Below are positions 4,256 to 28,891 of a stretch of DNA of 64,000 bases, in pieces; the stretch's first letter is position 1, and the number at the start of each line of letters is the position of its first letter. The DNA comes from a virus. The stretch lies in the IMG/VR virus record IMGVR_UViG_3300022928_002150, positions 1-64,000 of that record; one strand, given 5' to 3'. Below the pieces are notes generated by a model. It was not told the origin of the DNA. It ran no database searches and worked only from the letters and a program-made list of their open reading frames with translations. The position numbers were made by a program, and so were the translations under genes.

Positions 4256-4284
4256 TTGACATTCGATCTGCTCGAATGTATAAT
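4256..4284 (+). promoter_or_regulatory. Consensus promoter with built-in 21-bp operator
   Basis: TTGACA (4256-4261), a 17-base spacer and TATAAT (4279-4284). The segment 4259-4279 is a perfect dyad: ACATTCGA, TCTGC, TCGAATGT. It runs from inside the -35 to the first base of the -10, so a bound dimer would block polymerase. An A/T-rich tract precedes the -35. The expected RNA start (4291-4292) is at the ATG of the terminase gene. Confidence 0.85.
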
Positions 4285-4291
4285 TTATAGC

Positions 4292-4765
4292 ATGTCAAAA
4301 GAAGTTTCTATAATATCTCCCGAAGGAGTAGAAGTAGCTAATTGCTATCTCCAATACGGCAACATAAAGGCAGTTTGCGAATACATGTCTGTGCCAGAAC
4401 ATAGGGTAGTAGAAATTTTAAATACGCGTGAAGTAAAGCGTTATGTAGACACTGTGTATTTAGATATGGGGTACAGGAATAAAAATAATATTGCAGCTGT
4501 TCTTGACGAAATGATAGCATCAAAGCTAGAAGAGGCTCAAGAGAGCGGTATGTATACATCAAAGGATCTAGCGGATCTGATGGTCATGGCCCATAAAATG
4601 AGAATGGACGAAATTAAAGCGTTGGCAGAAGCTGAAAAGGCGTCCAATGCAGCCACTATTCGTAGTCAAACGAATGTACAGATTAATGAAGGTATTCCTT
4701 TTGGGCAAGGCAACTACGGTAAGTTGATGGAAAAATTATTAAATGGAGCTGGAGCAACAGAATAA
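4292..4765 (+). CDS. Probable terminase small subunit
   Basis: 157 residues from MSKEVSIISPEG. An N-terminal helical region with a possible helix-turn-helix (YLQYGNIKAVCEYMSVPEHRV) would recognise packaging-site DNA; the middle (DMGYRNKNNIAAVLDEMI to DLMVMAHKMRMDE) is strongly helical, as needed for ring assembly. It opens the virion gene cluster and lies well before the large subunit at 25379. The ATG at 4292 is chosen because the frame's earlier TTG lies inside the promoter; the chosen start has no ribosome-binding site and sits at the expected RNA start. The assignment rests on family resemblance and position, not on a diagnostic motif. Confidence 0.6.
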   Translation: MSKEVSIISPEGVEVANCYLQYGNIKAVCEYMSVPEHRVVEILNTREVKRYVDTVYLDMGYRNKNNIAAVLDEMIASKLEEAQESGMYTSKDLADLMVMAHKMRMDEIKALAEAEKASNAATIRSQTNVQINEGIPFGQGNYGKLMEKLLNGAGATE

Positions 4766-5036: not shown

Positions 5037-8000
5037 ATGGCTTTAGTACTACGACTTGTAAAAGGCACAGAACTTACTTTTACAGAGCTAGACGGAAACT
5101 TCACTTACTTAAATACAACTAAGTACGAAAGTGGAGATGACGCCCAATTTGGACAACTGAATTTTAGTACCCTCTCAGACGGTGTGCTACAGATTCTTGC
5201 GTTCACAAATGACCCGACTCTGAATTCTATAGACGGGTCAGTAATACTTCCTACTGAAGAAGCAGTAAAATCTTATGTTGCTTCTTATCACACTAATAAT
5301 CCTTATTCTTTTTCAGAACTCAATGACTCGAGCGGTGCTGGATTTCTCGGTGCCGTACTCATTCATGACGGCAGTAACTACGTTCCAAAAGCTCTTGAAA
5401 TCACAGACTTTTCAGATTTCGATGTTTCTACTGTTTCAGACGGATCTATTCTTGCATACGATGCTCAAACCTCTCTCTGGACCGCAACCTCTGCGGCAGC
5501 TTTAAGTTCCGTTTATTTAAATGATCTTGTAAATGTAAATGTTACAGGTGCCTCTGAAAATGATGTACTCGCTTTTGACGGGTCTTTTTGGGTAAGTACA
5601 AGTCCTGTTCTAGAAATAGAAAACTTAACAGATGTAAACTACCTCACAACTCCGAAGGCTGGCGAATCTTTAATATACGATGACGTTTTAGAACAGTGGA
5701 TTCCTGGAACACCAGCTACTGTCGGAAAACTAACTGTATCAGCCGCACTCAATACTAACATTACTGCAGGAAAGGCTGTTACAGTAGGTAGACAGAATAA
5801 CAGAACTGTAGTCTTTCCTATCTCTTATCTACCTCCTGAGTTTGGTCAATCAGAAACTGTTGGTAATCAGTTAGGCGCTCAAACTCATTCGCTATGGCTA
5901 AGCTCTCAGAAAAAATTTATTGTAGCATTTATTAATGCTACTACAGGTGCGGGCGAGTTTGTAATTGGAGAAGTAGATGATGATGGTGTAGAGATAACTA
6001 TGGACACCACTGTCCATGAGTTTGCTACCGGCGTCGGAGGAGAGTTCTCCGTTACGTATGATATAGCAACTACTCGAGTTATTTTTGCCTGGAAAGATAT
6101 TATTACCAATATTGGATATACTCGTGTAGTTACAATTGCAGGGTTTGCGGTAAGCATGTCGCAGTTTCCTATCGATTTTTCTTTGGGCGAGGCTATCGGC
6201 TCTCACTCCGTCTCTTCTGACACACAAAGCGGAAATTTAATTTTTCATTATGCGGATAACTCTTTAAACGGAGGAGGCGTAGGTATAGGTCGAGTAGGTG
6301 AAATAGATGGCTTAGACGTACTTTTTCAGCCGCCCACTGCTTTTACAACCAGGGAAGTTTACGACCTTCATACTGTTTATGCTCCTACAACTAATAGGCA
6401 CGTTACTGTATTTACTGACCAAATCAGTGAAGGCTACTCGATGGTCACTTTACTTACGGGGGTATTTGCAACTTATAGAACACCAAGAACATTTGATGAT
6501 GACTTAAGTTTTCCTTTTGTAACTATACTTCCAGACGGTAGCTCTTGCTGGGTTGCTTATAAAGATAATACGGTTAGTCCCCCTCGTGGAAAGGTCACAA
6601 GGTTTACTGCTAGCGCCACAGGTACTAGCACGGTAACAGACAACTCGTTGTACTCCAGATATTTCTTCGAAGATGGAACTGGCTCAGGGCCTACCCCGTA
6701 TAACATGTCAAATATTAGGCCTGCAGTCTTAGCATCCACTACAGATAGGGCGGCAGTTATTTTATGGGGGAGAGAGAACTCTGACACCAATGATATAGAA
6801 CTCTTTACAACAACTATTGCATATAGTGAATGGAGTGGCCGCCCCATTGTAGATATAGACGGAGCTGAGGCAGCTTCAGACGATACTTATGATTCTTTTA
6901 TAATAAATGGAAGCATACATCCCGCTTCTACTAGTGGGCTAACAGAAAGTAGAATGATAGTTCCGTTAGATTTAGCTACGGGAGTACGGGCTATAACCTA
7001 TGGGAACAATCCAGTAACTAATATTAAAGACTGGTTTGGTATCGCAGATGAAAGTTTTTCTAGTGGTTCAAGTGACTATAATTCTGGAATTATAACTATT
7101 TTAGGGGGCCAGACGAAGGTTACTAGTTGGATAGGTGGTTCACAGCCGAGTAATTTTGTTCCTGGTACTCCAATTTATATTGATAATTCAAGGTTATACC
7201 GAGGAAGTCTTCGCACCAGTGATGTAGGAAGCGGCGCCATTGGCATAAGTATAGATGCAAGCACCGTTCTTATTACCGGTGATGTCGAGCCAAATCCTAG
7301 CATAGCAGGTATACCCAAAAGCATAACAGAACTAGAGGATGTGGATACACTATCGACAGCTCCTCTTTCTCAACAATTTCTTCAATGGAATACCAATGCA
7401 CAAAAATGGGTTCCAGCCTATGCCTCAGTAACTGGTCAAATAAGTAATCTTGATGATGTCGATACTTATAACGGTTTTGAAGCTGGCATACCTAAAAGCC
7501 ACTTACTTGCTTGGGATAATTTTAACATAGAATGGGTTCCTAAATCAATAAATCAAATTTTAATTGATGAGCCTGTAGAGCTGGGAGAACTTAGTAATGT
7601 AAATTTTGTTCAAGTAAATGATGGAGATCTGCTCACATACAATGGTCCTACTCAGACTTGGATTTCATCCCCGGTAAATTTAGAAACCGATCTTGGAGAT
7701 ATAAATGATGTAGATTTAACAACCGGATTAGCTACAGGAACATATCTTCAGTATGATGGTGCTAATTGGGTTCCTGGCCAAGCCGTTTCAACTATGCCCA
7801 GGTTTAGAGATCTTGCAGATACCGGAGGCCAGTGGAGTGGCCAACAAGGTATGGTACCTATATTTAATACAACGGGTACCTATGCAAACCAGTTCACCTT
7901 AGGCTTTGTTAGTAATTTTGGCGGCATTGGAGACTTGTTTGATGTAGATACTTCTACTATTTCGCCCCAACCCGGTCAGTCTCTTGTTTGGAATGGAACT

Positions 8001-11000
8001 AAGTGGGCGCCTGCTACTATTACTGGTGGTGGAGGAGGAAGTACTGGCGGTGGCGATACTGGAGGGGGTACTACTACTACTCCTAGCCCAAACCCTGACG
8101 GGGGTGGAGGAAGTACTGGCGGAACCGTTGAAACGGAAGACGGGGATATAATAGAAATTCCCTCTTTAGACGTTGATGAAGATATAGAAGAACCTATCGA
8201 AACTGGAACTGGGTTTGTTTCTGAGACTGTTACTAATACTGATACTGTACCTGCAACGGATGTTATTCCTGAAAACGTAAAGCCGGGCGACTTATTTCAA
8301 ACACCCTCATTATCTAAGCCGTATCCTGTTGTATACAGCATATCTGAAGACAGGACAGAGCTCACTCTTTCTGAAAATATATCAACTAGTCAATTTGAGG
8401 CTATTATTTTTGCAACTCCTCCTGTCTACCAAGTAGTTGCAACTACTGGCACTGTAGAGGTTGGTCAGGGGGTTGTAGGTACTGAATCCACTAGTGAGAT
8501 CTTTCTTGATACTCCTTTGCCTGAAGAAATTGTTCCTGGTCACGCTGTTTACATAGGAAGCAATGTAAATATTCCTATTGTAAGTGGAATAAGTGGAGAC
8601 AGATTAAGCTTTGCTGTAAGTTATGATATAGATATAACTGCAGGCGCTACTATTATATTTAAAGTAGTAATTCCTATGGCAATCTCTCAGGATGTAGGAT
8701 CATTCGTAAATAACAATCCTGCAGGGACTACTGGTAGCAACACTATTGTACTGAACGACCCTGTGGGCCCAGATGTAGAAGTTAATCATTATGTAATGCA
8801 CTCGGAACTAGAGTCTGCTCCTAGAGTAGTATTTATATCTACAGACAGACTTAGCATTACTGTAAATAAAAATGTAGACGCTTTAGTAGACGGTCAATTT
8901 ATTACCTTTGGTAGTACTACTAGCAAGCAGCAAGAAGTAACGTTTACTCTAGCGGAACTATCAGATACAGATATTCAAACAGCTGCTTTGCAAGATGGAG
9001 AGGTTTTACTGTGGAACTATGAAAACCAAGTATGGACTACTAGTGACGTCCAACTATCTAATTCATTAGACGCATTAAATGATGTTCGTATCGACAACCC
9101 TCAAGAAGGTCAAATACTTAGATATACTACACTAGCTGATGCAAACAGATATGAAAATATAGATCCCAGTTTTGGAGCAGGCGCTCTAGCAGATTTTAAT
9201 TACAATATAGCGAATCAGGCATCGAACAATATTCTTACGTGGCACGCCCCTTCTTCCGCCTTTATCAGTACTCCTATAGGCGAGGTCATGAGAGCAAGTG
9301 ACTATACCATGAACAACCTTGCAGACGTTACTGGTGTGCCCTTTGATGGATCTGCTTTAGTATACGACAGTAACACAGGATTCTATAGCTCTGCGTCCTT
9401 CCCAGACAGCATATATGATTTAGCTGATGTCGCAGGTTTGCCAGAACCGTCTGATGCTCTTGTATGGAACGGCGCAAGCTGGAGCCCTGCGCCCATACCC
9501 AGGGCTTTAGAAGACCTAAACGAAAGATCTATTTTTCTATTAAACCAGCTAAACGAGAACGGTTTTCAAAATCTGGGAAATACACCTTCTTCTAAGTTTT
9601 TAAAATGGACGGGAACTACTATAGATACTGTAGTTACGGGCAGCATAGAAGGAATAGGACTTAGATTAGAAGATTTAGACGATGTTTCAATAACTGAACC
9701 CTACAATTCGGATTTTATTTCTTGGGATCCCGATACAAACTCATGGGTAACTAGAAGTGTAGAAGGTGCAGTAATTTCTATAGGTTTGGATGTTTTAACC
9801 GATGTAGATTTTCAGGCAGTGCCTCCACAAAACAGAAACACATTAGAGTATAACGCGTCTACAGGGGAGTGGAGACCTGCAACTCGCTCAGGTGTAGCCA
9901 ACTATATAGCCGCTGAAAACCTTTCAGCAGGTGACCTACTAGCTTTAAGATCAGACGGCGAAGTCGAAAAAATAGCAGAAATAGAAAGTAGTGTATCCAG
10001 CATCTTTCAAGCTTCAGGTAGCCCTTCAGTAAGTTCTGATTACTATGGTAAAAGTGTATTTGTATCTGATGACTATTATATTGTGGGAGCTCCAGGGTAT
10101 GAGTACTTAACTGTTGGGGGTAAGGTAGAAATATTCTCTACAAGTACTAACACCCTTGTACAAACTATAAACAACCCCAATGCAACTGCCAATGATAAAT
10201 TTGGAGAATCGGTATCAATTTCAAGCCAGTTTTTTACTATTGGGGCTCCAGGCTACGACTCTAATGCAGGCCGAATATATGTATATAGTTTACCAGGGTT
10301 CATACTAGAACATACTATCGACAACCCAAATGCAGCAACATCAACGTTAGACGACCAATTTGGCTTTAGAGTACAGAATACAAATACTTATGTAGCGGTT
10401 ACTGCAATTAATGAAGAGCCTCAATCCTTGTCAGATACTAACTCTGGCACAGTGTACGTATTTAACACTGCAACTGGAAATCAGTTAGGCTTTGTAGAAA
10501 ATCCCTCTCCCAGCATAACAGGGTTTGGTAGTGCTATATCAATATCTACTTCAGGCGATTTAGCTATTGGAAGCCCTAGCGAGGAAAAAGTATATGTCTA
10601 TGAGGCAGCTACTTTAAGCTCTATCTATACTATTTCTAACCCTGGCGGTGCAGGAGACTTCGGTAGCTCTATTGCAATTTCTTCTGACGGACGTATGGTG
10701 GTTGGTGCTCCTACTGCTGATACGGGCAGCGGAAAACTGTATATATACAATTTAAATAATGGCGATTTTAACTATACTCTTAACAACCCTAATAGAAACG
10801 CAGACGTACCCACAGGCGATAATTTTGGTAGTAGCGTTGCTGTAACAACTGAGTATATACTTGCTTCTGCCAGTGGAGAGAATGTAGGGAGTGTTTATTT
10901 GTTCGAGGCCGCCTCGGGAGCTTTTAGAAATGAATTTTTATCAGATGAAGGAGCAACAAATATAAATTGGGGATTTGGTCTAGCTCTTACGAACGACTAT

Positions 11001-14000
11001 CTTATTATTGGTTCGCCTAGACTAACCGTTGCAGGTACAGGTAAAATTGCAACTTTTGCTAGTGATTCGTTCATAGAAAGTAATGCTGGTGATTGGGTAG
11101 GAATATCAGAACAATCGGTAGAAGCTACTCAACAAGTAACTGTAACAACTGTAGGTGCCGTAAATAAGTTTGTATCCGGTCTGACTATTAATAAAAACTA
11201 TTATATAGACGGTAGAGGCTTTATAACTGAGACTGAGACAGATTACGGTGTGTTAGGAAAAGCTCTTGCTGCTGATGAGTTGCTTATTACAGGAAATGTA
11301 GTATCTGCTGAAACCGGAGTAACTTATATAAATGATATCCGTGATGTAGATACTGTAACTGTTCCTCCCTCTAACAATCAAGGCTTAGTATGGGATAGTG
11401 CTAATAATAGGTGGGCCCCTAAAAATATAGGATATAGTAATATCACTACTTTTGGTGGCTTAACAGATACAAGTGTTGGGGGAGTCCAAGCAGGCCAAGG
11501 TCTTAAATACAGTGGATCTTCATGGGGTCTTGCAACATATATTGAAGCTGGAACTCTATCTCTAAGTAGTCTATCAGATGTTGATACTTCCGGGGTTGTT
11601 GATAATGCCGCCTTAGTTTACAGTTTGCAATTTGATGAGTGGCAGGCAAGTGTTATACCGATCCCAGCAACAATAAACGATTTAAATGATATAGATCTTT
11701 CCACAGTATCTGCGGTTAATAATGATGTATTAGTTTATAATGCCAACAGCGAGCTGTGGGAGCCAGGTCAAGTTTCTAGAGTATCTGCGCTTGGGGACTT
11801 AATCGATGTAGATTTAGCTTCTCAGCCGCCTGTACAAGATAATGTTATTGCTTATCAAGCGGGCGTTGGCTGGACACCTGTTCAAATTACTAATATTACC
11901 GTAACGCAGTTAGATAACATGGATGATGTTAGAACTGCGGGACTTTATGCACCTGTTCCAGGAGAAACTTTAATTTGGAACGGTATTGAAGGCGTATGGG
12001 AGCCAGGCTCTCCAGCCTTAGACACTATTAGTATAGGATCTCTTTCAGACGTAGATACTACGCCCGGCACTGCAAGTGAGCCTAGTTTCGGAGAATTTTT
12101 AGCCTGGGACGGAGTTAATTGGTCTCCTGGCTCAACAGCACCTACTGCTGCAACTCTTAATAGTTTGCTAGATGTAGAGGTAATTGCAAACCCAGCAAAA
12201 GAAAAGGAAGTACTTACTTATGATGCTACTACCCAGAAGTGGTACCCTAGAGCAGGGCACTCGGGTGGTATAGAAAACTTCATAGCAAATGGAGATATTA
12301 GTGATGGAGATATAGTTTCTATTACCCCTCCTGGAAAAGTTAAAAAGACAGGTCAAGAGCCCTTTTTACCTGCTTGGAATGTAGAAAACCCTACTATATT
12401 TGGTACGGCTACCAGTGATCAATTTACTAGTGCAGTTGTTGCATCAGGAGATTATATTATTGCTGGTGCTCAATATGAGGACGAGATAGAAGGAAGTAGT
12501 TCTGGGGTTGTATACGTATTTAATAATTTTGGTACTCAACAGTATTATATTAAAAATGAAAATATAAATAATCCTGTAACAGGGGACCGATTTGGTAATT
12601 CTTTAGACGCTAGCGGTAACCTTCTAGCGGTAGGATCTCTTCTTGCTGATGATCTAACAGGGTATAATCAAGGAGCAGCTTATGTCTACCGCTTGGCTAC
12701 AGGAACATCCCCTAGTGGAGACTTATGGCTATCAATACAAAATCCTGATGGTACAAACAACGCGCAGTTTGGCACTGACGTAGCTATAAGCGATTATAAT
12801 GGTGAGGCTCGTTTAGCCGTCGGCGCACCACTAGAAGATATGAGTGACCAATACTCAGAAGCTGGATGCGTATACTTTTTCGATCCTGACATAGGTGTAG
12901 GAGACCCTCAATATGGGTTTTTATACCGTATTGATAATCCTAATACAGTCGGTAGTATATCAGGGGATTACTTTGGCCAAAGAGTGTCTCTTACTCAAGA
13001 TAGAAAATACTTAGCTGTTACTGCGTCCAGAGAAGGTACAACTAGCGTAAAGGGATATGTCTATATATATGACGTAAGCAGTGACTCTCTTCCCGTTTTA
13101 TTACATACTATATCAAATCCAAATCCGGGTGGAGGTTCAGATGCAACGCATGGGTTTGATATAGTATGGGATAGAAATCCATCAATTAAAAGATTAGCTA
13201 TATCTGCACCAGAGCAGGATTTTACGGGTGCTAATGAAGGTCTTGTTTATATATATGATGTAACCGATGAAGCTTGTACTCTTATAAATACTATTCAAAA
13301 CCCTGATACTTATCCTCTTCCGCAGGGAGATGAGTTCGGCTACTCCATCGATATGAAAGATAACAAAATACTAGTAGGTGCAAGAAGAGAAGATCAGGGG
13401 TACATAGGAGGAGTATATACTAATGCTGGTAAGGCTTATTATTTCGAAGCCGATACCGGTACTCCTATTGCATATTTTGACAATCCTAATATATATGGGA
13501 ATAGTACAACTGAGTACTTTGGTTCAAGTGTTGCTATTGGTAATGATAAATTATACGTAGGTGCTCCTTTTGCTAGGAATACTATTTCAGGTGACTTTAA
13601 CTCTGGACACCTTACAGCTTTTGATATTAATATAACTAGTAATGCTTCATCTTGGATAGGAGTAGCTTTTGAAGATATTTTAGATGGAGATGTAGGACAA
13701 GTAACCCTGTTTGGTGGTATAGCACACAATCAAGTTAATCTATTGCCGGGACAGAATTATTATTTAAATATTGATGGTACTCTTAACAGTTCTCCCACAA
13801 ATTTAGGTATTTTTGGTAAAGCTTTAAGTGCAAACGACATTTTAATAACAGGGGACGTTGAATCTAATACTGCTGACCAAGTAAATAATTTAAATGATCT
13901 TGGAGATGTTACTGCATTTGCTTCAGACGGCCAGGCGCTTGTTTGGAACGCACAAAGCTCTCAATGGGTAGCAGGAGATGCGGCTGGGGGTGTTAGTAGC

Positions 14001-17000
14001 TTATCGGATTTAGATGATATAAATTTACCTATACCTTCAAATATTCAAACAGGGGAGGTTTTAACTTGGAACGCGGTATCTCAGTCTTTTGTTAATGCTG
14101 TAACTGGTTCAAGTAACGTAGACGTATTAGATGATTTAACAGACGTAGATCTTAGTAGTGTTTTACCTTCAGCTTTGCAGATATTGCAATATAATGGCTC
14201 AATATGGTCTCCTCAAGACTTACCCGAGGGACAGCGTATTACTGGTATTGCAGCGGAGCAAATATTACAAGGCGGCTTAGTAGTACTAAATAGTTCTGGT
14301 CAGTTTGAAAATCCCACAATAACTGCAGGGGAGCTGGTATCTTCTTTCCCATCTAGCTCAGATTTGGGACTTTTTGGGCATACAATTGCAGAAGAAGGCG
14401 GCCGTGTCGCAGTTTCAGCACCTTATCATAGAATTGGCCCCAACAGCGGAGTCGCAACCGGCCTAGTAAGGATTTATGATACAGATAACTCTACTTTAAT
14501 ACGTACATTACAACCCTCCCTAAGCCTCACAACGCCCGCGGCTTGGCGAGGAGAAACTAATCAGGCGTTTGGATTTGCAGTAGCAATAAAAGATGATTAT
14601 GCAGTTGTAGGCTCTCCTCTTAAGGATTTAGATGCGGTTAATTCTGGCGTTGTATACGTATATAGAATAAGCTCAGGTACTTTAATAGCAGTTCTAGAAA
14701 GCCCTGAGCCTCTTCTCCAAGGGCAGTTCGGTTCCTCAGTAGCTATTAACTCAACCTATGTAGCAGTGGGCGCACCACGAGTAGATATAGGGAATAATGC
14801 ATTAGTAGGTAAAGTATATAGATATCCTATCTCGTTATTAGAGTCATCAGAGTATGGAATACCAGAAGGAGAAACAGAAGCAAGATGGGATCCTCTTTTA
14901 GTTCCTGATTTTACATTCAACAATAATAATGATGATGGAGGCACTGGAGGAGACCTGTTTGGGTCTGCACTGAGCGCAACAGATACTTACTTGTCTATTG
15001 GAGCTCCTGGGGAGGATACTGGAGGACAGCTATCAACCGGTAGAATATACGTTCGTAATATTAATACTGGGTCTACTATACACACTCTGCAGGATACTAA
15101 TATAGGATCTAACGGACTAGGTTTTACCTTCGAAATGGATGATTCTATCATAGTTGCAGGAACCCCAGACTTTAATGGAGGTTTGGGAAGGGTATTGGTA
15201 TATTCTACAACCTCGGGTGCAGTGCTTGCAGAAATAAACAGTCCAGATCAGATAGGAGATAAATTCGGTAGGTCAGTAGGGCTGGGATCGAGTCAAATCG
15301 TTGTAGGTTCAGAAGCAAATAATGACGTATTAGGTTACAATGACTCAGGAAAGTTTTATAGCTATAATAGAGCATCCACTACTTCGTACCCCCTATATGC
15401 GGCATTTGAAAACCCGGGTTATGTTGTCAACCCTTCCGGAAGTTTATTTGGATTTTCTGTAGCGGTAACAAATTCTGGTCGTGCTATTGTTGGTGCTCCG
15501 TATAATGATAATGTTCAGGGAACTCAACAGTTCCCCGCAACAGATAGAGGGGTATTCTTTATATACGATGTAACACTGCAAGCTACACAATCAAATGCAG
15601 CAGACTGGATGGGCATTGCAGAACAGACAGCAGTTACAGGAGAACAACTAGAAGTGGTAATTCTAGGAGGAAAAACTTCTAGTATTTACTCTAATTTAGT
15701 TCCTGGAGAATATTACTATGCTGGGGCTGACGGAAGTCTAACCCTTGAAGAAACTTCTTACGGAATAGTAGGTCCTGCAGCAAGTGTTTCTGAAATATTA
15801 ATACTTGGAAGTATTTCAGGCGTATCTGATATGGCTGACTTAGCTGATGTTGATTTTTCTGCGGGATTAGTTCCCCAACATGGATTAACTTGGAACGGTC
15901 AAAAGTGGGTAGCAAGCTATGTATCAACAGTAACTAATTTACTAGATCTTGAAGATGTAAATTTACTAGACTCTCCTCCAGAAGATGCACAAGGCTTAGT
16001 TTATGATAACAACACGTCTAAATGGGTTCCTGCTAATATAGGCTACTCTAATGTAGCTCAGTTTAGTGATCTTAATAATGTAGATGTTAGTAATGCTACA
16101 GTAGGCCAAAGCATTGAATGGAACGGAGTAAATTGGATTCCTACTACGTTTTCTTCTGTTAATAGTATAAATGATTTAACGGATGTAAACACTACTACTC
16201 TTAAAGTTGATTACGATATACTTACTTGGAGCGAGTCTGCAGATGAGTGGATAATAGACAAACGTAATTTTGGCAATTTTTTAAACCTAGAGGCTTATGC
16301 TCCAACACAACCAATACAAGCTGGAGATCCTGTTTATATTACGGACGATGGTAAAGTTGCTGCAATCAAAGGCACGGAGACTGTTCTAGGCACAGAAAGC
16401 CTAGTAAATACTTTATATCCTCCTGTATCGAATTCTAATTTTGGAACTAATTTAGCGGTTAGTAAAGATATTATAGTTGTAGGTAACCCGTATTTTACCA
16501 GCGGAAATATTCTGAGTACAGGTAGAGCATACATCTATAATGCTACTAGTGGGCAGCTTCTATATACTTTGGAGCCTCCTACTGATTATTCATTACAAAG
16601 TTTTGGCTGGGGAGTAGCTACAAATGGCAGCGAAGTAGCTATTACTGCTAAAGAGTCTCCCTCTAATAATGATTACGGGCGTATTTATTTATACGATGCT
16701 TATACAGGAGCTTTATTAAGACAAATAGTAAACCCAGAAGACTCTGTATCTACGAATGGCCCTTTTGCTCAGCATAATTCAGTAGTAATGACGTCATCTT
16801 ATTTAATTGTAGGTAACTCTAATTGGAGAGATGCTACGTTAGGAACTACTCCGGGTAAGGCATACGTATTTAATATATTTACAGGCACTCAGGAGTATAG
16901 TTTTAATAACCCAAATCCTTCTAATGGAGCAGATTTTGGTCGATATATTAATATAGATGAAAGTGAAAGTATCATTTCAATAACAGATACAGGCACTGGA

Positions 17001-18980
17001 TCTAGTTTAACACATATTTATGAGCTATCTGATTATTCCTTTAGGACTACTATAGACCATAGTCTGGTAGGTGTAGTAGCAGATAAGTTTGCCCTTAATA
17101 CAAACTACCTTATTACAGGGTCTAACCAGCACGGTTATTTATCGGTATGGAGCACTGTAAGTGGCGCAAACTTGTATAGCAAACCTATTATTTCTTCTTC
17201 CGGTAAAGATATTGTTTGTAATGATAAACAAGTAGCAGTAATTACTGGATCAAGTGATGGAGTAAAATATTACGATATTGCTTCAGGACTAGAACTAGCT
17301 AATTTTAGTGTTGGTAGCTCTTTTCAATCGGGAGCTATGTATAAAACTAAATTAATACATAAGAGCAACCTAGGAGAAGTATTAAACTATAATTTAAGTG
17401 GTATTAAGACTAACACTAGAGCAGCAGATTGGGTAGGTATTAATGAATCTTTAACATATGATGGAGACATAGCAAAAATTAATACAGGGTCTGGTGTTAC
17501 TAGCTCTGTAACTAATCTTGTTACTGGTTTAAACTACTATGTGTCTATTGACGGTAGCTTATTTCCCGGGCCTACAGGATTTGGTAAAATAGGTAGAGCA
17601 ATAGATTCTACCACTATATTAATTAGCTCTAATACTAGCAATATAGATTTGGACGAAGAAAGTACAGCCGCTCTTATCGCAGGAATAAACGATTTAACAG
17701 ACGTTGATATTTTTACTTCATTTCCCGCAGATAATAATTTCTTACAATACGATTCGTCCTCAGCTCTTTGGGTACCTGGTACAGCAGCTATTACTCTGCT
17801 GAATGATGTTACTATATCTAACTTACAAGATAAAAATTTATTAGTATATTCTACAGACACTAGTTCCTGGGAAAATTCTTCAATATCTACATCAGAGTTA
17901 TCGGATGTAGATTATACAACACCAATCGAATCTGGCCAAACGCTAGTCTGGGATGGAAACACAAGCTCTTTCAAACCTGGAGTTACTGATAGATCAATAA
18001 CTAGTTTAAATGACGTAGACGATCAGGCACCTAGCGTAGGACAAATTTTAATATGGGACGATATATCTACCCAGTGGGTAGCCCAAGATAACGTTAGTAC
18101 TTTAGAAGGCTTGACGGATGTTGATATTTCGGGGGTCAGTAATAATCAGTTCTTACAATATAATAATGTAACATCCCTTTGGGAGCCAGGAGATGTAGCA
18201 ACTTCTATAGCTGAGTTAACAGATGTAAATGTAAGCGGCGGTATAACAGATGGCCAATATTTAGTATATAACTTAAATACTAGCGTATGGCTTCCGCAAG
18301 ACTTACCGGAATTTGCTGCAGCAATTGTTGACTTAACAGATGTAAATGCGGATTCTCCAACACAGGGGCAAGGACTAATATTCGATGATCAAACTAATAA
18401 ATTTGAGCTCGCAATAGTAGGCACTTCCAATGTTGATACTTTAGATGACCTATCTAATGTGTCAGTGCCCGCCCCAAATGATGGCGATGTTTTAAAATAT
18501 AATTCAAATTCAAGTGCTTGGGAAGCTACGCCGACCCCAAGCCCAGCAGTAATCTATGCAACTAGAGCCTCGTTTCCTTCTTTAGGTAACTTAGGTGATT
18601 TATCTTTTGCACAGGACACAGGCGCACTATACGTATGGGAAGGTACAGTTTGGTATAATCTAAAGAGAACTAATGCGTTCTACTTAGTTCGAGCCGGAAA
18701 CTTTACTGGACCATTAGAGGGTCAACAGGTATTTCAACCACAGCAAGCAATAACATTGCATGAAATAAGAGCTCAAGTCGATCAACCGTCAGGAGAGACT
18801 CTTATTTTTGCAGTTATGAAAAATTCCGTAGAAGTTCAACAATTTGTAATGCCTTCAGCGCAAGGTATTGTAGAGGCTGCTTTTACTAGCGGAGTAACTG
18901 TAGGTTTGGTGGATGAAATAACTCTTGACATAATATCAGGACCAGGTACAAACTTGTCCGTGAAGTTCATTTACTCATAA
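5037..18980 (+). CDS. Giant modular fibre/adhesin-like virion protein, 4,647 aa
   Basis: One uninterrupted frame of 13.9 kb. The N-terminus (MALVLRLVKGTELTFTELDGNFTYL) is a common start of phage tail fibre proteins. The rest alternates short fibre repeats, with a core like DLTDVD followed by GQ.L.WNG..W.PG, and four long blocks of FG-GAP-like propeller blades (pattern FG.SVAI, VGAP, VYVY, TI.NPN) near residues 1657-2015, 2451-2868, 3099-3518 and 3788-4121. Each block is followed by a module containing DW.GI, GL..G..YY...DG and LITG; an extra copy of that module lies near residue 664. A Gly/Ser/Thr-rich linker spans about 995-1028. The C-terminal 150 residues form a distinct domain. Likely function: host surface attachment, by analogy with long fibres and integrin-type propellers; no enzyme motif seen. 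Confidence 0.75.
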   Translation: MALVLRLVKGTELTFTELDGNFTYLNTTKYESGDDAQFGQLNFSTLSDGVLQILAFTNDPTLNSIDGSVILPTEEAVKSYVASYHTNNPYSFSELNDSSGAGFLGAVLIHDGSNYVPKALEITDFSDFDVSTVSDGSILAYDAQTSLWTATSAAALSSVYLNDLVNVNVTGASENDVLAFDGSFWVSTSPVLEIENLTDVNYLTTPKAGESLIYDDVLEQWIPGTPATVGKLTVSAALNTNITAGKAVTVGRQNNRTVVFPISYLPPEFGQSETVGNQLGAQTHSLWLSSQKKFIVAFINATTGAGEFVIGEVDDDGVEITMDTTVHEFATGVGGEFSVTYDIATTRVIFAWKDIITNIGYTRVVTIAGFAVSMSQFPIDFSLGEAIGSHSVSSDTQSGNLIFHYADNSLNGGGVGIGRVGEIDGLDVLFQPPTAFTTREVYDLHTVYAPTTNRHVTVFTDQISEGYSMVTLLTGVFATYRTPRTFDDDLSFPFVTILPDGSSCWVAYKDNTVSPPRGKVTRFTASATGTSTVTDNSLYSRYFFEDGTGSGPTPYNMSNIRPAVLASTTDRAAVILWGRENSDTNDIELFTTTIAYSEWSGRPIVDIDGAEAASDDTYDSFIINGSIHPASTSGLTESRMIVPLDLATGVRAITYGNNPVTNIKDWFGIADESFSSGSSDYNSGIITILGGQTKVTSWIGGSQPSNFVPGTPIYIDNSRLYRGSLRTSDVGSGAIGISIDASTVLITGDVEPNPSIAGIPKSITELEDVDTLSTAPLSQQFLQWNTNAQKWVPAYASVTGQISNLDDVDTYNGFEAGIPKSHLLAWDNFNIEWVPKSINQILIDEPVELGELSNVNFVQVNDGDLLTYNGPTQTWISSPVNLETDLGDINDVDLTTGLATGTYLQYDGANWVPGQAVSTMPRFRDLADTGGQWSGQQGMVPIFNTTGTYANQFTLGFVSNFGGIGDLFDVDTSTISPQPGQSLVWNGTKWAPATITGGGGGSTGGGDTGGGTTTTPSPNPDGGGGSTGGTVETEDGDIIEIPSLDVDEDIEEPIETGTGFVSETVTNTDTVPATDVIPENVKPGDLFQTPSLSKPYPVVYSISEDRTELTLSENISTSQFEAIIFATPPVYQVVATTGTVEVGQGVVGTESTSEIFLDTPLPEEIVPGHAVYIGSNVNIPIVSGISGDRLSFAVSYDIDITAGATIIFKVVIPMAISQDVGSFVNNNPAGTTGSNTIVLNDPVGPDVEVNHYVMHSELESAPRVVFISTDRLSITVNKNVDALVDGQFITFGSTTSKQQEVTFTLAELSDTDIQTAALQDGEVLLWNYENQVWTTSDVQLSNSLDALNDVRIDNPQEGQILRYTTLADANRYENIDPSFGAGALADFNYNIANQASNNILTWHAPSSAFISTPIGEVMRASDYTMNNLADVTGVPFDGSALVYDSNTGFYSSASFPDSIYDLADVAGLPEPSDALVWNGASWSPAPIPRALEDLNERSIFLLNQLNENGFQNLGNTPSSKFLKWTGTTIDTVVTGSIEGIGLRLEDLDDVSITEPYNSDFISWDPDTNSWVTRSVEGAVISIGLDVLTDVDFQAVPPQNRNTLEYNASTGEWRPATRSGVANYIAAENLSAGDLLALRSDGEVEKIAEIESSVSSIFQASGSPSVSSDYYGKSVFVSDDYYIVGAPGYEYLTVGGKVEIFSTSTNTLVQTINNPNATANDKFGESVSISSQFFTIGAPGYDSNAGRIYVYSLPGFILEHTIDNPNAATSTLDDQFGFRVQNTNTYVAVTAINEEPQSLSDTNSGTVYVFNTATGNQLGFVENPSPSITGFGSAISISTSGDLAIGSPSEEKVYVYEAATLSSIYTISNPGGAGDFGSSIAISSDGRMVVGAPTADTGSGKLYIYNLNNGDFNYTLNNPNRNADVPTGDNFGSSVAVTTEYILASASGENVGSVYLFEAASGAFRNEFLSDEGATNINWGFGLALTNDYLIIGSPRLTVAGTGKIATFASDSFIESNAGDWVGISEQSVEATQQVTVTTVGAVNKFVSGLTINKNYYIDGRGFITETETDYGVLGKALAADELLITGNVVSAETGVTYINDIRDVDTVTVPPSNNQGLVWDSANNRWAPKNIGYSNITTFGGLTDTSVGGVQAGQGLKYSGSSWGLATYIEAGTLSLSSLSDVDTSGVVDNAALVYSLQFDEWQASVIPIPATINDLNDIDLSTVSAVNNDVLVYNANSELWEPGQVSRVSALGDLIDVDLASQPPVQDNVIAYQAGVGWTPVQITNITVTQLDNMDDVRTAGLYAPVPGETLIWNGIEGVWEPGSPALDTISIGSLSDVDTTPGTASEPSFGEFLAWDGVNWSPGSTAPTAATLNSLLDVEVIANPAKEKEVLTYDATTQKWYPRAGHSGGIENFIANGDISDGDIVSITPPGKVKKTGQEPFLPAWNVENPTIFGTATSDQFTSAVVASGDYIIAGAQYEDEIEGSSSGVVYVFNNFGTQQYYIKNENINNPVTGDRFGNSLDASGNLLAVGSLLADDLTGYNQGAAYVYRLATGTSPSGDLWLSIQNPDGTNNAQFGTDVAISDYNGEARLAVGAPLEDMSDQYSEAGCVYFFDPDIGVGDPQYGFLYRIDNPNTVGSISGDYFGQRVSLTQDRKYLAVTASREGTTSVKGYVYIYDVSSDSLPVLLHTISNPNPGGGSDATHGFDIVWDRNPSIKRLAISAPEQDFTGANEGLVYIYDVTDEACTLINTIQNPDTYPLPQGDEFGYSIDMKDNKILVGARREDQGYIGGVYTNAGKAYYFEADTGTPIAYFDNPNIYGNSTTEYFGSSVAIGNDKLYVGAPFARNTISGDFNSGHLTAFDINITSNASSWIGVAFEDILDGDVGQVTLFGGIAHNQVNLLPGQNYYLNIDGTLNSSPTNLGIFGKALSANDILITGDVESNTADQVNNLNDLGDVTAFASDGQALVWNAQSSQWVAGDAAGGVSSLSDLDDINLPIPSNIQTGEVLTWNAVSQSFVNAVTGSSNVDVLDDLTDVDLSSVLPSALQILQYNGSIWSPQDLPEGQRITGIAAEQILQGGLVVLNSSGQFENPTITAGELVSSFPSSSDLGLFGHTIAEEGGRVAVSAPYHRIGPNSGVATGLVRIYDTDNSTLIRTLQPSLSLTTPAAWRGETNQAFGFAVAIKDDYAVVGSPLKDLDAVNSGVVYVYRISSGTLIAVLESPEPLLQGQFGSSVAINSTYVAVGAPRVDIGNNALVGKVYRYPISLLESSEYGIPEGETEARWDPLLVPDFTFNNNNDDGGTGGDLFGSALSATDTYLSIGAPGEDTGGQLSTGRIYVRNINTGSTIHTLQDTNIGSNGLGFTFEMDDSIIVAGTPDFNGGLGRVLVYSTTSGAVLAEINSPDQIGDKFGRSVGLGSSQIVVGSEANNDVLGYNDSGKFYSYNRASTTSYPLYAAFENPGYVVNPSGSLFGFSVAVTNSGRAIVGAPYNDNVQGTQQFPATDRGVFFIYDVTLQATQSNAADWMGIAEQTAVTGEQLEVVILGGKTSSIYSNLVPGEYYYAGADGSLTLEETSYGIVGPAASVSEILILGSISGVSDMADLADVDFSAGLVPQHGLTWNGQKWVASYVSTVTNLLDLEDVNLLDSPPEDAQGLVYDNNTSKWVPANIGYSNVAQFSDLNNVDVSNATVGQSIEWNGVNWIPTTFSSVNSINDLTDVNTTTLKVDYDILTWSESADEWIIDKRNFGNFLNLEAYAPTQPIQAGDPVYITDDGKVAAIKGTETVLGTESLVNTLYPPVSNSNFGTNLAVSKDIIVVGNPYFTSGNILSTGRAYIYNATSGQLLYTLEPPTDYSLQSFGWGVATNGSEVAITAKESPSNNDYGRIYLYDAYTGALLRQIVNPEDSVSTNGPFAQHNSVVMTSSYLIVGNSNWRDATLGTTPGKAYVFNIFTGTQEYSFNNPNPSNGADFGRYINIDESESIISITDTGTGSSLTHIYELSDYSFRTTIDHSLVGVVADKFALNTNYLITGSNQHGYLSVWSTVSGANLYSKPIISSSGKDIVCNDKQVAVITGSSDGVKYYDIASGLELANFSVGSSFQSGAMYKTKLIHKSNLGEVLNYNLSGIKTNTRAADWVGINESLTYDGDIAKINTGSGVTSSVTNLVTGLNYYVSIDGSLFPGPTGFGKIGRAIDSTTILISSNTSNIDLDEESTAALIAGINDLTDVDIFTSFPADNNFLQYDSSSALWVPGTAAITLLNDVTISNLQDKNLLVYSTDTSSWENSSISTSELSDVDYTTPIESGQTLVWDGNTSSFKPGVTDRSITSLNDVDDQAPSVGQILIWDDISTQWVAQDNVSTLEGLTDVDISGVSNNQFLQYNNVTSLWEPGDVATSIAELTDVNVSGGITDGQYLVYNLNTSVWLPQDLPEFAAAIVDLTDVNADSPTQGQGLIFDDQTNKFELAIVGTSNVDTLDDLSNVSVPAPNDGDVLKYNSNSSAWEATPTPSPAVIYATRASFPSLGNLGDLSFAQDTGALYVWEGTVWYNLKRTNAFYLVRAGNFTGPLEGQQVFQPQQAITLHEIRAQVDQPSGETLIFAVMKNSVEVQQFVMPSAQGIVEAAFTSGVTVGLVDEITLDIISGPGTNLSVKFIYS

Positions 18981-19271: not shown

Positions 19272-21221
19272 ATGGCTAAAATTATAGACTATCAAGGTCA
19301 CAGCGGGCAATTTTGTGTATTTGAAGACCCTCGTGTTTCAAGTAATGATTTCTTTTTGTTTGACGCTCAGCACGACTTCAGTACATTAAGCCCTATTTAT
19401 AATAAAATGTATGGTACCAGCGCGGCGCGATCGAATGGAATTACCGGCACCAATGCGATGAACCAAAGAAGTAATACCAGTCTTACAAATGGTAGGTACC
19501 AAATTGGAAGCTTGATGAAGCCTTGGACAGAGTTTAAACAGTACACCAGTGTCTCTAGTAACTATCTTAATCAGGCTACTAGAAAGTTTGATATTTCAAT
19601 GGATAGAAATAATCCAGCAAAAGCGGGAGCTTTTGTAATTAATAATGGATCTAACGATGCAGTATTTCATTCCAGTGGTAATAACACTACTCAGGCGTAT
19701 TTTTACATAGATAGTTACAAAATTAGTTCTGATCAAGGATTTAATGATATTCCTTTTCAGGGAGGAGTAACCACAAACACCATCACCAGTTCACCATTCA
19801 ACTCTAGGGCTTACAGTTTTATACTTGATTATTATCAACCTACCTCGAGGCTGATTTGGAGTAGAATGAATTATGAGAATAATACTAGTAGTTGGTATAG
19901 ATATGGTTTCGGTCTTATACCTGTTAGTTGGCCGACTGCGAATACACCCCAGGCCGGATTCATACTTACAGCGTACTCCGAGTTTTCATATCTTGGATTC
20001 AGTGAAGTTGATGGTCTACCTCACTGGCTCATGGATGATTGGAGCGGTAGCAGGAGCGTAGATATTCAGAAATGTACTTCATCATCGTTGAATACGTCGA
20101 CGATCGTCAAGACCACTGGAGGCATTACTAATTCAAATCTTGCGTTCCAGACCGGCGGCGCTGATCTAGAAGGCCTTGCATCTGATGGTACGATGGTTGG
20201 CGACGTAAATGGGAGGATGTACGGTAGTTCTACTTATCAAACGCGAAATAGGCCTACTAAATATTTTACTGATCCACGAGATGTCTCAGGGAATACAGTG
20301 CTTTGGTATACCAACTATGTAGACGAAGAAAGTAACTTTCATCCAATTCTTTGGACGTGGGATAAGTCGGATGACACCTTCAAGTTCCAAACAGATACGC
20401 AAATGAATCCACATGCGGGTGCTACGGTGGGATTTACAGGCAAATCATCAGAGGTAGACGCCTGGAATCAAACAAACCTGTTTGAAGGAGCTTACACAAC
20501 TTATATGTTTAGTGCTAGTACTAGTGAACAGAGTATTACGGGTGCTACACTCTTACATATGTTTGAATTTGGGGGAGAAAGATATCTAACATATATATGG
20601 GTAGATGAGGCGCGAGCTTTTACTTCCTCTACTCTGTTTCGTACTATGCTTACTTGGAAAATAGATGCTGCAGACCCTAGAGTATTTACTTTTCATAGTA
20701 AACATGTTTTAAATGTGCCTTTTCAAGAGTATATATTTTTAAATGATGAAGAAAGTTTAATGGGTTTAAAAGACTATTATTCTTTTCAGATTTATGCTTT
20801 TAACTCAGCTACTGGGTGGGAACAAGCTAACTCGCTTCCTTTTGATGTAGGCTCTATGGGAAGAGACAGTACGGATAGAATATGGTTTATAAAAGGCAGC
20901 ACATCCTTAGGTAGTACAAGCTATCCCGAAGTTCATTTGCTTACACCTACTTTACCTTTAACTGTAACAGTAACTCCTGCACAAACTAGTTATACCTATG
21001 CGGGCTCGCAGATACCCTCAACCGTTGATGTTAGCGCTTATAACGCTACGGGAGATAGAATATCTACAGATGTTAAACTATTAATAGAAGGAACGGGTAT
21101 GACCTTTACTGGAGGAGTTACAGTATTAACAGTAACGACTTCAGCGGTTGCTGAGCTAGCAGTAGATATATTTATAAATAGCGCAGGCTTTTCTAATATT
21201 ACAGCTAGTGTAGACGTATAG
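19272..21221 (+). CDS. Putative virion protein with Ig-like C-terminus, 649 aa
   Basis: Beta-rich, Ser/Thr/Asn/Tyr-rich sequence typical of exposed virion proteins. The main body (residues 1-550) looks like a repetitive beta-propeller or fibre shaft with many aromatic and Gly residues; I do not recognise the family. The last 95 residues (LTVTVTPAQTSYTYAGSQ to the end) resemble a bacterial Ig-like (Big) domain, common on phage surface proteins as carbohydrate-contacting modules. It directly abuts the 92-aa gene and is followed after 2 bases by another large virion gene. Role: probably a surface or fibre component. Confidence 0.55.
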   Translation: MAKIIDYQGHSGQFCVFEDPRVSSNDFFLFDAQHDFSTLSPIYNKMYGTSAARSNGITGTNAMNQRSNTSLTNGRYQIGSLMKPWTEFKQYTSVSSNYLNQATRKFDISMDRNNPAKAGAFVINNGSNDAVFHSSGNNTTQAYFYIDSYKISSDQGFNDIPFQGGVTTNTITSSPFNSRAYSFILDYYQPTSRLIWSRMNYENNTSSWYRYGFGLIPVSWPTANTPQAGFILTAYSEFSYLGFSEVDGLPHWLMDDWSGSRSVDIQKCTSSSLNTSTIVKTTGGITNSNLAFQTGGADLEGLASDGTMVGDVNGRMYGSSTYQTRNRPTKYFTDPRDVSGNTVLWYTNYVDEESNFHPILWTWDKSDDTFKFQTDTQMNPHAGATVGFTGKSSEVDAWNQTNLFEGAYTTYMFSASTSEQSITGATLLHMFEFGGERYLTYIWVDEARAFTSSTLFRTMLTWKIDAADPRVFTFHSKHVLNVPFQEYIFLNDEESLMGLKDYYSFQIYAFNSATGWEQANSLPFDVGSMGRDSTDRIWFIKGSTSLGSTSYPEVHLLTPTLPLTVTVTPAQTSYTYAGSQIPSTVDVSAYNATGDRISTDVKLLIEGTGMTFTGGVTVLTVTTSAVAELAVDIFINSAGFSNITASVDV

Positions 21222-21223
21222 TA

Positions 21224-23773
21224 ATGAGTGTCTCGGTTGCTACATCTAAAGTTATTATCGAAATAGGAATACTGACGGAGCAATATACTCCGTCAGCTCT
21301 TGATCGCCCGAAGACTTTTGACGATTCGGTAGCTTCTGTTTTGGTTGTAGACCAACCGGGACAAATATCCGTAGGCGCCGTAGAATATGGTAGCACTACT
21401 ATAGCTACTACTAGACAGCAGTACTACGTATCACCCCCTTCTTTTTCTCAAACAGACATTGAAGTTATTGATAATAATTTAGCTACTCAAATACCTATTT
21501 CTGCTATTTTTCCTGCAAGCCCTACAGTAACTACGCAGTATCCTCGTAGGATTTTATCCCCCTATAACGTATACTGGGGGGAAGAAAGAGCTCAAGGCCC
21601 TCAAGCACAGGTATTTGTAACGGAAGAAGATATTAGATCTCCTGTCGTTGGGGTGTCTACTCAACTAAACATAGGAAGAGATAAGCTGAGAAGTAGGTTT
21701 GTAAATGGAGCAGTAGAGGCGGGTTTATCGTCCTCTACTAGTGTTTATGTAGCTCCTATTTTATCAGGTTTTAATGAAACTATACAACTAGGTCAAAGCC
21801 CTAATATTCGTATGTCTTACGATTATCCATGGGCTTCAGGGCAGAATATATCCGAACTAAGACCTAGCGGGGCTTCTGGTACAACTACTACTTTTGAATC
21901 CGTAGAAATTACATCAACAATATCCCCCTTTGCTGTACCCTTTCCGACAGGAATTTATTCTAATCAAAACGGGCCCGTGAGCGCAGTATACGAATCTGTT
22001 CAAGTTGCTGCTGAACCAGCACACAGACCTACAAGCATAGCAGGAGGTCTAGAAGACATAAGCTCTCCTACGGGAATAACTGCAACTAGTAGGGTTGCTA
22101 CAGGTACGGGGTTTGGAATACTAAATCCCGATGCGGGGGTGTATGCAAGATTTATTAATACTAAACTCAACCCCCAACGAGAAGGAATAGCGTTTAAAAT
22201 TAATGGTGCAGCTATATCAAGAAGATATTTAAGAGTAACTTTTGATTATTACAAAAGTTTTAATGGTACTGCGTATGAGGGTGCTTATCCTCATATATTT
22301 GATGCAGTCATTGGAATTTCAAGTGCCTATAATGGTATACCCTTTAATGCATTGGGGCAGACTGCTCAAAGTTTTCCAACCTTGAATCACGATGCAAGAG
22401 CACAACTACGCCGTAGATTTTATGACAGCATAACGGACTCAGAAGAGTATAGTGCTATTCTTTTGAGTAACGGCGCTCAAACAGCAGATGTAAGATCGAG
22501 AGAGGATAGTACAAATAATACTTATACTAATATGACTATTTTTGATTATCAAAATACTGCGTCTTTGACTGATTTTTTCCCTGCTCCTAATGAGACCACA
22601 ACTGATAAAACTACCGCAAGAATAGTGTATTTAATTGACTTTCAGACTGGCGATCACTATTTTTATTGTCGAAATAAGTATTTAAAGACGACTCTTGAAT
22701 TAATTTGTACGGAAAATACGGGGTTGACTAGTTATGACCAAAACAAAGATACCTATCTTTTATGGGGGTTAAGTCCTTTTGCATATGATACCGACTGCTT
22801 TGTATCTAATGCTTATATAAATCAAATTCATATTACTATGGCGGACACCTGGGATACGGTCGATATTCTAACAGATCCTATGGCGGAACCTACTGGTAGT
22901 TATTCAAATGTTCTTAGAAGCTGGGAAGAAACAGAAGACTCCCCCAACGACCTCTTAAGTGCAGATCAACAGGCCGGAGTAGAAACCACAGAACCAACGC
23001 CTATATCTCCAAGAATAGATTTCGACTTAAGTAAAGTGCCTGCATTTAGTCCAGGAACTGTATATATGTATCCCCAAGTTAAAATAGCTATCGACCAACC
23101 TTGGCCTGGAGATGCTTTTTCTGGAAATAAATGGTCTTTGAAAGAAAGACCTATAAGGGTTTCTATAGGAACTGCTTACTTTACATATCCCTCATTTGTA
23201 TCATCCAATACTACAGGGAAAGCAGAAGTTTATGTAGATTTACCTGTAGAAAAACCAGATATTGAGGCCATATATTTATACAAGCAAAAAGTATCTATAA
23301 CTAACAATAAAAGACAAAACTTACCTAATGTAGCACATAACAGTGCAGAAGCAGAAGTTTATGTAGAAAGCCCCCTTGTAGTATCTACCATAGAAGATAA
23401 TGCTGTATTTGTTGATAGGCAATCCTTGCCGATTATAACAGGCCTAGATAGATACTTTAACCCTGTTAATAATTTTAATAGTATTGATATTATTATTCCT
23501 ATTGATAACATAGATTTCAACGCCGTAGAGATAGCGCCTTTAAATTTTGGCTATGTTACTTTGACAGCTTCTTACGACCGATATGGATATTATTTTATTG
23601 CTACACAGCCCAGAGTGGCAAACGCTACTGTTTTTACTTATGCTCCGGGAGAGGAGTTAGTATTTTTCGAAGATCAATATGGCGTAACTAAATTTGGCTT
23701 AGCAACAGACTTTTTTGAATTACCAGCAGGTGCTGGAGGCTTTAGCAGTTTTGAACTGCTAATTAGTGAATAG
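21224..23773 (+). CDS. Putative virion protein, 849 aa
   Basis: Large beta-rich protein without a recognised family. It has no signal peptide and no cysteine-rich motif. The stretch from about residue 340 to 550 has a denser mix of charged and aromatic residues (for example YLRVTFDYYKSFNGTAYEG) and may be a globular domain; the flanks are Ser/Thr/Pro-rich. Position in the virion cluster, size and composition suggest a structural or host-contact role. The ATG lies 2 bases after the previous stop, indicating coupled translation. Confidence 0.5.
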   Translation: MSVSVATSKVIIEIGILTEQYTPSALDRPKTFDDSVASVLVVDQPGQISVGAVEYGSTTIATTRQQYYVSPPSFSQTDIEVIDNNLATQIPISAIFPASPTVTTQYPRRILSPYNVYWGEERAQGPQAQVFVTEEDIRSPVVGVSTQLNIGRDKLRSRFVNGAVEAGLSSSTSVYVAPILSGFNETIQLGQSPNIRMSYDYPWASGQNISELRPSGASGTTTTFESVEITSTISPFAVPFPTGIYSNQNGPVSAVYESVQVAAEPAHRPTSIAGGLEDISSPTGITATSRVATGTGFGILNPDAGVYARFINTKLNPQREGIAFKINGAAISRRYLRVTFDYYKSFNGTAYEGAYPHIFDAVIGISSAYNGIPFNALGQTAQSFPTLNHDARAQLRRRFYDSITDSEEYSAILLSNGAQTADVRSREDSTNNTYTNMTIFDYQNTASLTDFFPAPNETTTDKTTARIVYLIDFQTGDHYFYCRNKYLKTTLELICTENTGLTSYDQNKDTYLLWGLSPFAYDTDCFVSNAYINQIHITMADTWDTVDILTDPMAEPTGSYSNVLRSWEETEDSPNDLLSADQQAGVETTEPTPISPRIDFDLSKVPAFSPGTVYMYPQVKIAIDQPWPGDAFSGNKWSLKERPIRVSIGTAYFTYPSFVSSNTTGKAEVYVDLPVEKPDIEAIYLYKQKVSITNNKRQNLPNVAHNSAEAEVYVESPLVVSTIEDNAVFVDRQSLPIITGLDRYFNPVNNFNSIDIIIPIDNIDFNAVEIAPLNFGYVTLTASYDRYGYYFIATQPRVANATVFTYAPGEELVFFEDQYGVTKFGLATDFFELPAGAGGFSSFELLISE

Positions 23774-28522: not shown

Positions 28523-28891
28523 ATGGCAACTAGACGACAGACCGTTGCAACTTTAACTAAGCTACGAGATCATATTGTACAATTCGGAGTAAAAGCTCCG
28601 ATATCTTATGAAGAGTATATTAAGTTAAAGCCTACCAATCCTATTACTAAAAGGGAGCTTGGCCGTGTATTTAACGGTAGATGGGCTAGGGTATTAACAG
28701 CCCTGATCAGGAAGTTCCCTACAGTATATGATGACGCTGCAAAAGCTCATGCAAAGCCTGTAATTCAGCCTAAGGCAGAACCTAAGGTAGAGCCTGAAGC
28801 AGCGCCTAAATCAGCACCAAGGAAGCCGGTAACAAAACCTGCTCCTAAGCGGTTCGCTGCTAAGAAGGAGGATGTTAAAAACGATGAATAA
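28523..28891 (+). CDS. Small protein with Pro/Lys/Glu-rich tail, 122 aa
   Basis: Residues 1-75 look like a compact helical domain with a possible DNA-binding pattern (ITKRELGRVFNGRWARVLTAL); the remainder is a low-complexity tail with PKAEP/PKVEP-like repeats and basic end. It lies between portal and protease-capsid genes and overlaps the latter by 8 bases when the capsid frame starts at 28884. Probably a head-associated or regulatory protein. Family not assigned. Confidence 0.6.
   Translation: MATRRQTVATLTKLRDHIVQFGVKAPISYEEYIKLKPTNPITKRELGRVFNGRWARVLTALIRKFPTVYDDAAKAHAKPVIQPKAEPKVEPEAAPKSAPRKPVTKPAPKRFAAKKEDVKNDE

Follow-up and report, generated by a model that had tools for sequence, protein, structure and literature searches.

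A giant protein with FG-GAP propellers encoded between the terminase genes of a marine phage is a candidate multivalent host-adsorption fibre

Background

Giant structural proteins containing FG-GAP domains are already known from cyanomyoviruses, where they reach 7,022 amino acids (aa). The protein of that length, S-MbCM6_080 of a marine Synechococcus phage (T4-GC_108), is annotated as a virion protein, is encoded among the clustered baseplate genes of a myovirus and contains one FG-GAP_2 block (Pfam E-value of 9.4e-46 for the piece scanned). In cyanophage S-TIM5, gp054 (408 aa), annotated as “virion structural protein and packaging”, consists of a lone FG-GAP_2 propeller (E-value 1.3e-79) without a stalk, and its gene lies away from the main structural genes. 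Phage C48C1 likewise has an FG-GAP_2 block, in a protein annotated as hypothetical, and outside phages such propellers occur in bacterial adhesins. The side tail fibres of T5-like and lambda-like siphophages combine a long repeated stalk with host-binding parts. Finally, gp17 (1,910 aa) of the jumbo Salicola phage SCTP-2 has no propellers and is made up largely of the stalk repeat described below, in ~36 copies. We found no isolate phage in which the stalk repeat and FG-GAP occur together, our literature search on FG-GAP in phage fibres retrieved no relevant paper, and we found no description of a “string of beads” layout for siphophages.

Here we describe a protein that has both features, encoded in the first 64,000 bases (hereafter, the window) of the 95,808-base virus record IMGVR_UViG_3300022928_002150. 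It shares the FG-GAP_2 propeller with S-MbCM6_080 and S-TIM5 gp054, but differs from the former in having four such blocks instead of one and in being encoded between the terminase genes instead of the baseplate cluster; furthermore, our stalk profile found no match in S-MbCM6_080. Homology beyond the propeller, combined with a location among baseplate genes, was not found, and the protein is not placed in T4-GC_108. The resemblance to the side fibres of T5-like and lambda-like phages lies in the long repeated stalk, whereas the gene position, the size, the conserved C-terminus and the beads along the shaft are different; in addition, this phage encodes a J-type tail-tip protein.

Results

The original prediction, which was made from the letters of the sequence, reported a single frame of 13.9 kb encoding 4,647 residues, and this holds: positions 5037-18980 of the plus strand form one uninterrupted open reading frame (ORF) that starts with ATG, encodes 4647 aa and contains 0 internal stop codons. 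The frame recurs in three other contigs with 0, 1 and 3 nucleotide differences, all of them synonymous and none non-synonymous. A sister lineage (L098 and L099) encodes, in the same slot, an intact 4735-aa orthologue with 52% identity to the window protein, in which all modules and parts are kept in the same order; two more loci of this lineage, L100 and L101, contain partial copies. The near-identical contigs together with the intact, diverged orthologue indicate that the 4647-codon frame is real and has been selected to stay whole. The claim that it is exceptionally long for a phage is justified with respect to most phages, although S-MbCM6_080 is longer. A nucleotide search yielded 0 matches among isolate phages.

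The gene had been placed before the terminase, which is correct for the large subunit gene, terL (25379-26683, plus strand), but more exactly it lies between terS (4292-4765, plus strand; phrog_3802, E-value 2.6e-37) and terL, in a cassette of ~18 kb for which terS is the left border, with terL in the right border region. Two companion ORFs on the plus strand belong to the cassette: one of 649 aa (19272-21221), a constant member found in 11 loci, with phrog_20698 and phrog_22549, both PHROGs of unknown function, matching its C-terminal part, and one of 849 aa (21224-23773) for which no PHROG or Pfam family match was detected. They are followed by a small basic protein, the T5-like terL, a T5-like portal and, further downstream, an apparent protease-capsid fusion protein, a lambda-like tail and a J protein with an S74 chaperone at its end. 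The T5-like homology is evident for TerL (48.6% to T5-like vibriophages) and for the portal (~40%); we do not claim membership in Demerecviridae, however, because the tail genes are lambda-like. These genes start more than 10 kb downstream, so the tail-module neighbourhood of a long tail fibre is not found here.

The terS-terL interval spans 20.6 kb in the window versus 1.1-6.4 kb (median 2.65 kb) in 34 related loci that contain both terminase genes, and the cassette is absent from all 34, in a comparison that covered loci with gaps of up to 10 kb and leaves the share of carriers uncertain. The ORFs that follow terS in L067, L068 and L023 are small, with signal-peptide-like starts or membrane segments. 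Because varied small ORFs fill the slot, the terS-terL gap appears to be a general insertion site of this phage group. A different fibre-like ORF (998 aa) occupies it in L022 (3836-6829), and at its C-terminus this ORF matches the end of the window's J protein that contains S74.

Several other features of the neighbourhood were recorded. A perfect TTGACA-16/18-TATAAT promoter (4256-4284, plus strand) is located just before the terS ATG at 4292, leaving next to no leader; there are six perfect promoters of this type in the window, on both strands (on the plus strand, also at 711, 982 and 26913), compared to ~0.02 expected when estimated for uniform bases. In the sister lineage, a 207-codon ORF, located directly before terS (L098, 15593-16213, minus strand; L099, 2299-2919, plus strand), starts like a signal peptide and ends like an outer-membrane beta-barrel (...LSYNF); no such ORF was seen in the window. 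The head maturation protease and the major capsid protein are apparently fused in one ORF of 681 aa (28872-30917). In the J-type tail-tip protein (46705-52329), a tandem LGTTAGTALxGDTALLQ array precedes the S74 chaperone.

The giant protein, all parts of which are given in plus-strand coordinates, starts with an N-terminal domain (residues 1-120; 5037-5396), in which residues 3-44 are common to short proteins that adjoin putative baseplate-region genes in other marine viral contigs. This end shows no evident signal peptide or membrane anchor. The stalk that follows is presumably elongated. The short fibre repeats of the original prediction are confirmed by a hidden Markov model (HMM), which detected 37 repeats of the LTDVD...WNG..W.P unit, spaced by 31-47 aa (median 37) and arranged in seven clusters, numbered 0 to 6: 3 repeats at 5397-5726, 5 at 7293-8024, 6 at 8937-9896, 8 at 11301-12272, 3 at 13866-14234, 4 at 15813-16280 and 8 at 17637-18536. 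The same HMM produced no positive-scoring match in the shuffled protein. A repeated stalk, with a period of ~37 aa, is thus present as in the long tail fibres of phages. It is matched by PHROG 677 (baseplate wedge tail fibre connector) and resembles SCTP-2 gp17 (E-value 6e-17 for cluster 6) as well as proteins annotated as tail-fibre or baseplate components in other phages. At the DNA level, there is next to no identity among the repeats. Between clusters 1 and 2, a Gly/Thr-rich linker (residues 997-1035; 8025-8141) is followed by an internally repeated segment (8142-8936) of three ~82-aa copies (internal-repeat z of 9.6), with an IS.DR motif at residues 1102, 1185 and 1267. The C-terminal domain (residues 4501-4647; 18537-18977) has no Pfam match and contains no recognisable chaperone or adhesin domain. 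Among solved structures, none matched the N-terminus or module 1, and the matches of the C-terminus and the stalk were at chance level only.

Five modules interrupt the stalk; in each of them, a larger domain is inserted into a small frame domain. In modules 2-5, the first half of the frame domain comprises ~30 residues (“GD.V....GKV”) and the second half ~70 residues (“DWVGI...GG...L..G.YY...G.L...YG..GKA...LLI”); in module 1, both halves were seen by eye in alignments. The description of the modules as insertions into a pre-existing domain is based on the recurrence of this split pattern, with no uninserted homologue behind it: a search of isolate phages for an uninserted frame domain produced one weak match, to the second half only.

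Four of the five inserts are FG-GAP blocks. Over the whole protein, Pfam FG-GAP_2 (PF14312) matches with an E-value of 3.6e-83 and a score of 274 bits against a cut-off of 23, in 15 stretches, and each of the four blocks separately exceeds the curated cut-off. We identified exactly seven blades with the blade HMM in each of modules 2 (9897-11300, propeller at 9987-11081; Pfam E-value 1.8e-33), 3 (12273-13865, propeller at 12357-13640; 1.7e-38) and 4 (14235-15812, propeller at 14328-15596; 4.2e-29), and three recognisable blades in module 5 (16281-17636, propeller at 16377-17420; 1.9e-9); the Pfam stretches in these four modules number 6, 6, 5 and 3, respectively. Therefore, of the four propellers originally proposed, three are clear, and the fourth is degenerate.

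The suggested structure prediction was carried through for module 2, alone among the FG-GAP modules: the AlphaFold2 model, built from eight module sequences (pLDDT 77, pTM 0.72), is a seven-bladed propeller of the integrin type. The closest solved folds are the heads of integrins alpha-V and alpha-5 (Z-score of ~37, rmsd of ~3.0 over ~335 residues, 20% identity), with Z-scores of 35-37 for integrin alpha heads, and in a sequence profile comparison, integrin alpha-4 was matched with an E-value of 5.5e-11. The DxDxDG calcium motif is absent from all 4,647 residues, and therefore, the likeness is one of fold class, not orthology; the propeller also differs from the integrin alpha head in belonging to a phage protein and in being inserted into a fibre frame domain. 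In a Foldseek search of a viral library, S-TIM5 gp054 was among the best fold matches, together with many giant-virus proteins, which we take to reflect a common fold rather than a relationship. Overall, the original reading is partly supported: the profiles and the model of one module favour a fibre-like stalk with integrin-type propellers. That reading had not included a fifth module, the splitting of the frame domain, the pair of companion genes or the lack of the cassette in related loci.

This additional module, module 1 (residues 231-752; 5727-7292), contains an insert without FG-GAP and without any Pfam match, which is probably all-beta. The structure model, built from two sequences, is unreliable (pLDDT 36). 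A propeller was considered here as well, and internal-repeat z values of 1.4 in the window protein and 3.6 in L099 were unconvincing.

Comparison with the sister lineage shows that the parts of the protein differ in conservation. The C-terminal domain is the most conserved (80% identity); the second halves of the frame domains are at 56-73%, the N-terminal domain at 60% and the stalk at 47-59%. The identity of the propellers declines from module 2 to module 5 (58, 45, 42 and 36%), so that variation peaks in the beads furthest along the chain, and the propeller of module 5 is the least conserved segment of all. The arrangement usual in phage long tail fibres, with a conserved N-terminus and a variable C-terminal tip, was not found in this protein; the variable parts are the beads. 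The companion ORFs of 649 and 849 aa are 51% and 39% identical, respectively, so that the cassette proteins fall into the range of 39-52%, whereas the identity between the sister phages is 86-97% for terminase, portal, capsid and p101. Fast divergence of a cassette against stable capsid and packaging proteins is a pattern typical of host-recognition genes.

Discussion

We consider it fairly probable that the giant protein is a multivalent host-adsorption fibre of a marine phage with T5-like packaging genes and a lambda-like tail, and a tail side fibre appears more likely than a capsid fibre. We infer that it belongs to the virion, forms trimers, sits on the tail and not on the capsid, and has a binding function. 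If other phage fibres are a guide, the ~37-aa repeats of three chains would together build a thin stalk, with the N-terminal end as the anchor. A rough estimate based on the dimensions of the T4 long tail fibre would give the non-propeller residues a reach of something like 150 nm. Spaced along the stalk, five frame domains would each carry a bead, that is, one of the four integrin-alpha-type FG-GAP propellers (one of them degenerate) or the different beta-rich domain of module 1. The beads might hold glycans or proteins of the host surface reversibly, through many weak contacts, before committed contact is made by the tail tip, where the J protein would act.

The tail-fibre interpretation is favoured by the resemblance of the stalk, the PHROG 677 match and the N-terminus to tail-fibre and baseplate-linked proteins, and a role in the virion by the structural annotation of the FG-GAP-bearing proteins of S-TIM5 and S-MbCM6. 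Host adsorption is further favoured by the FG-GAP propeller fold, by the speed with which the cassette has diverged and by the lack of the cassette in the 34 related loci. This interpretation is weakened by the position of the gene between terS and terL, away from the tail genes, by the combination of a highly conserved C-terminus with a poorly conserved last propeller, and by the failure to recognise a C-terminal chaperone or adhesin domain.

The same position, upstream of the portal and capsid genes, would be explained if the protein were a fibre or decoration of the head, tethering the particle to host surfaces or sea-water polymers, with frame domains derived from head-cement domains; we regard this possibility, the main rival, as unlikely, if worth keeping in view. 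Such a location would fit the sub-threshold resemblance of the frame domains to Phage_cement_2, with 5 of 8 matching weakly (best E-value 0.0048), and the weak hits to PHROGs for head decoration and head fibres. However, one frame-domain member scored 16.4 bits against the cement profile, for which the cut-off is 24; such weak matches could come from a small beta fold that the domains have in common, and both the N-terminus and the stalk resemble tail-fibre or baseplate-linked proteins instead.

Less probable still is a protein outside the virion, for example one that is secreted or exposed on the surface of the infected cell, where it would mediate adhesion or exclude other phages as a moron in the terS-terL slot. 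The lineage-specific insertion as a cassette, the FG-GAP propellers of bacterial adhesins and the membrane-like or signal-bearing small ORFs in the slot of relatives are compatible with this proposal, but the N-terminus lacks an evident signal peptide or membrane anchor and resembles fibre N-termini, and the FG-GAP proteins of the two cyanophages are annotated as structural. Long, highly repetitive genes such as this one are prone to misassembly, yet a decaying gene or a chimeric assembly of repeats from which no single protein is made is hardly credible, being ruled out, short of long-read data showing breaks, by the three contigs with 0-3 synonymous differences, by the conserved module order of the 4,735-aa orthologue and by the near absence of DNA-level identity among the repeats.

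If the adsorption-fibre interpretation is correct, the adsorption protein would be a beaded chain, with propellers spaced along the shaft and with most of the variation in the beads and not at the tip. The more specific picture of a “string of beads” adhesion fibre that is capsid-borne or encoded in the packaging operon is speculative, and we give it a low probability; in this picture, a trimeric fibre would display up to a dozen propellers, providing the virion with a multivalent and reversible hold on host surfaces like that of integrins, and the beads instead of the tip would be the recognition parts that evolve fast. The terS-terL gap would be marked as an uptake site for large host-recognition cassettes in a widespread group of marine phages, which would fit the finding that hypervariable islands of marine phages include terminase and host-recognition genes (PMC3909814).

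Eight TerL relatives (L143-L150; 74-81%) come from genome bins, of which six are labelled Gammaproteobacteria or families within this class, a weak hint that the hosts of these phages belong to this group.
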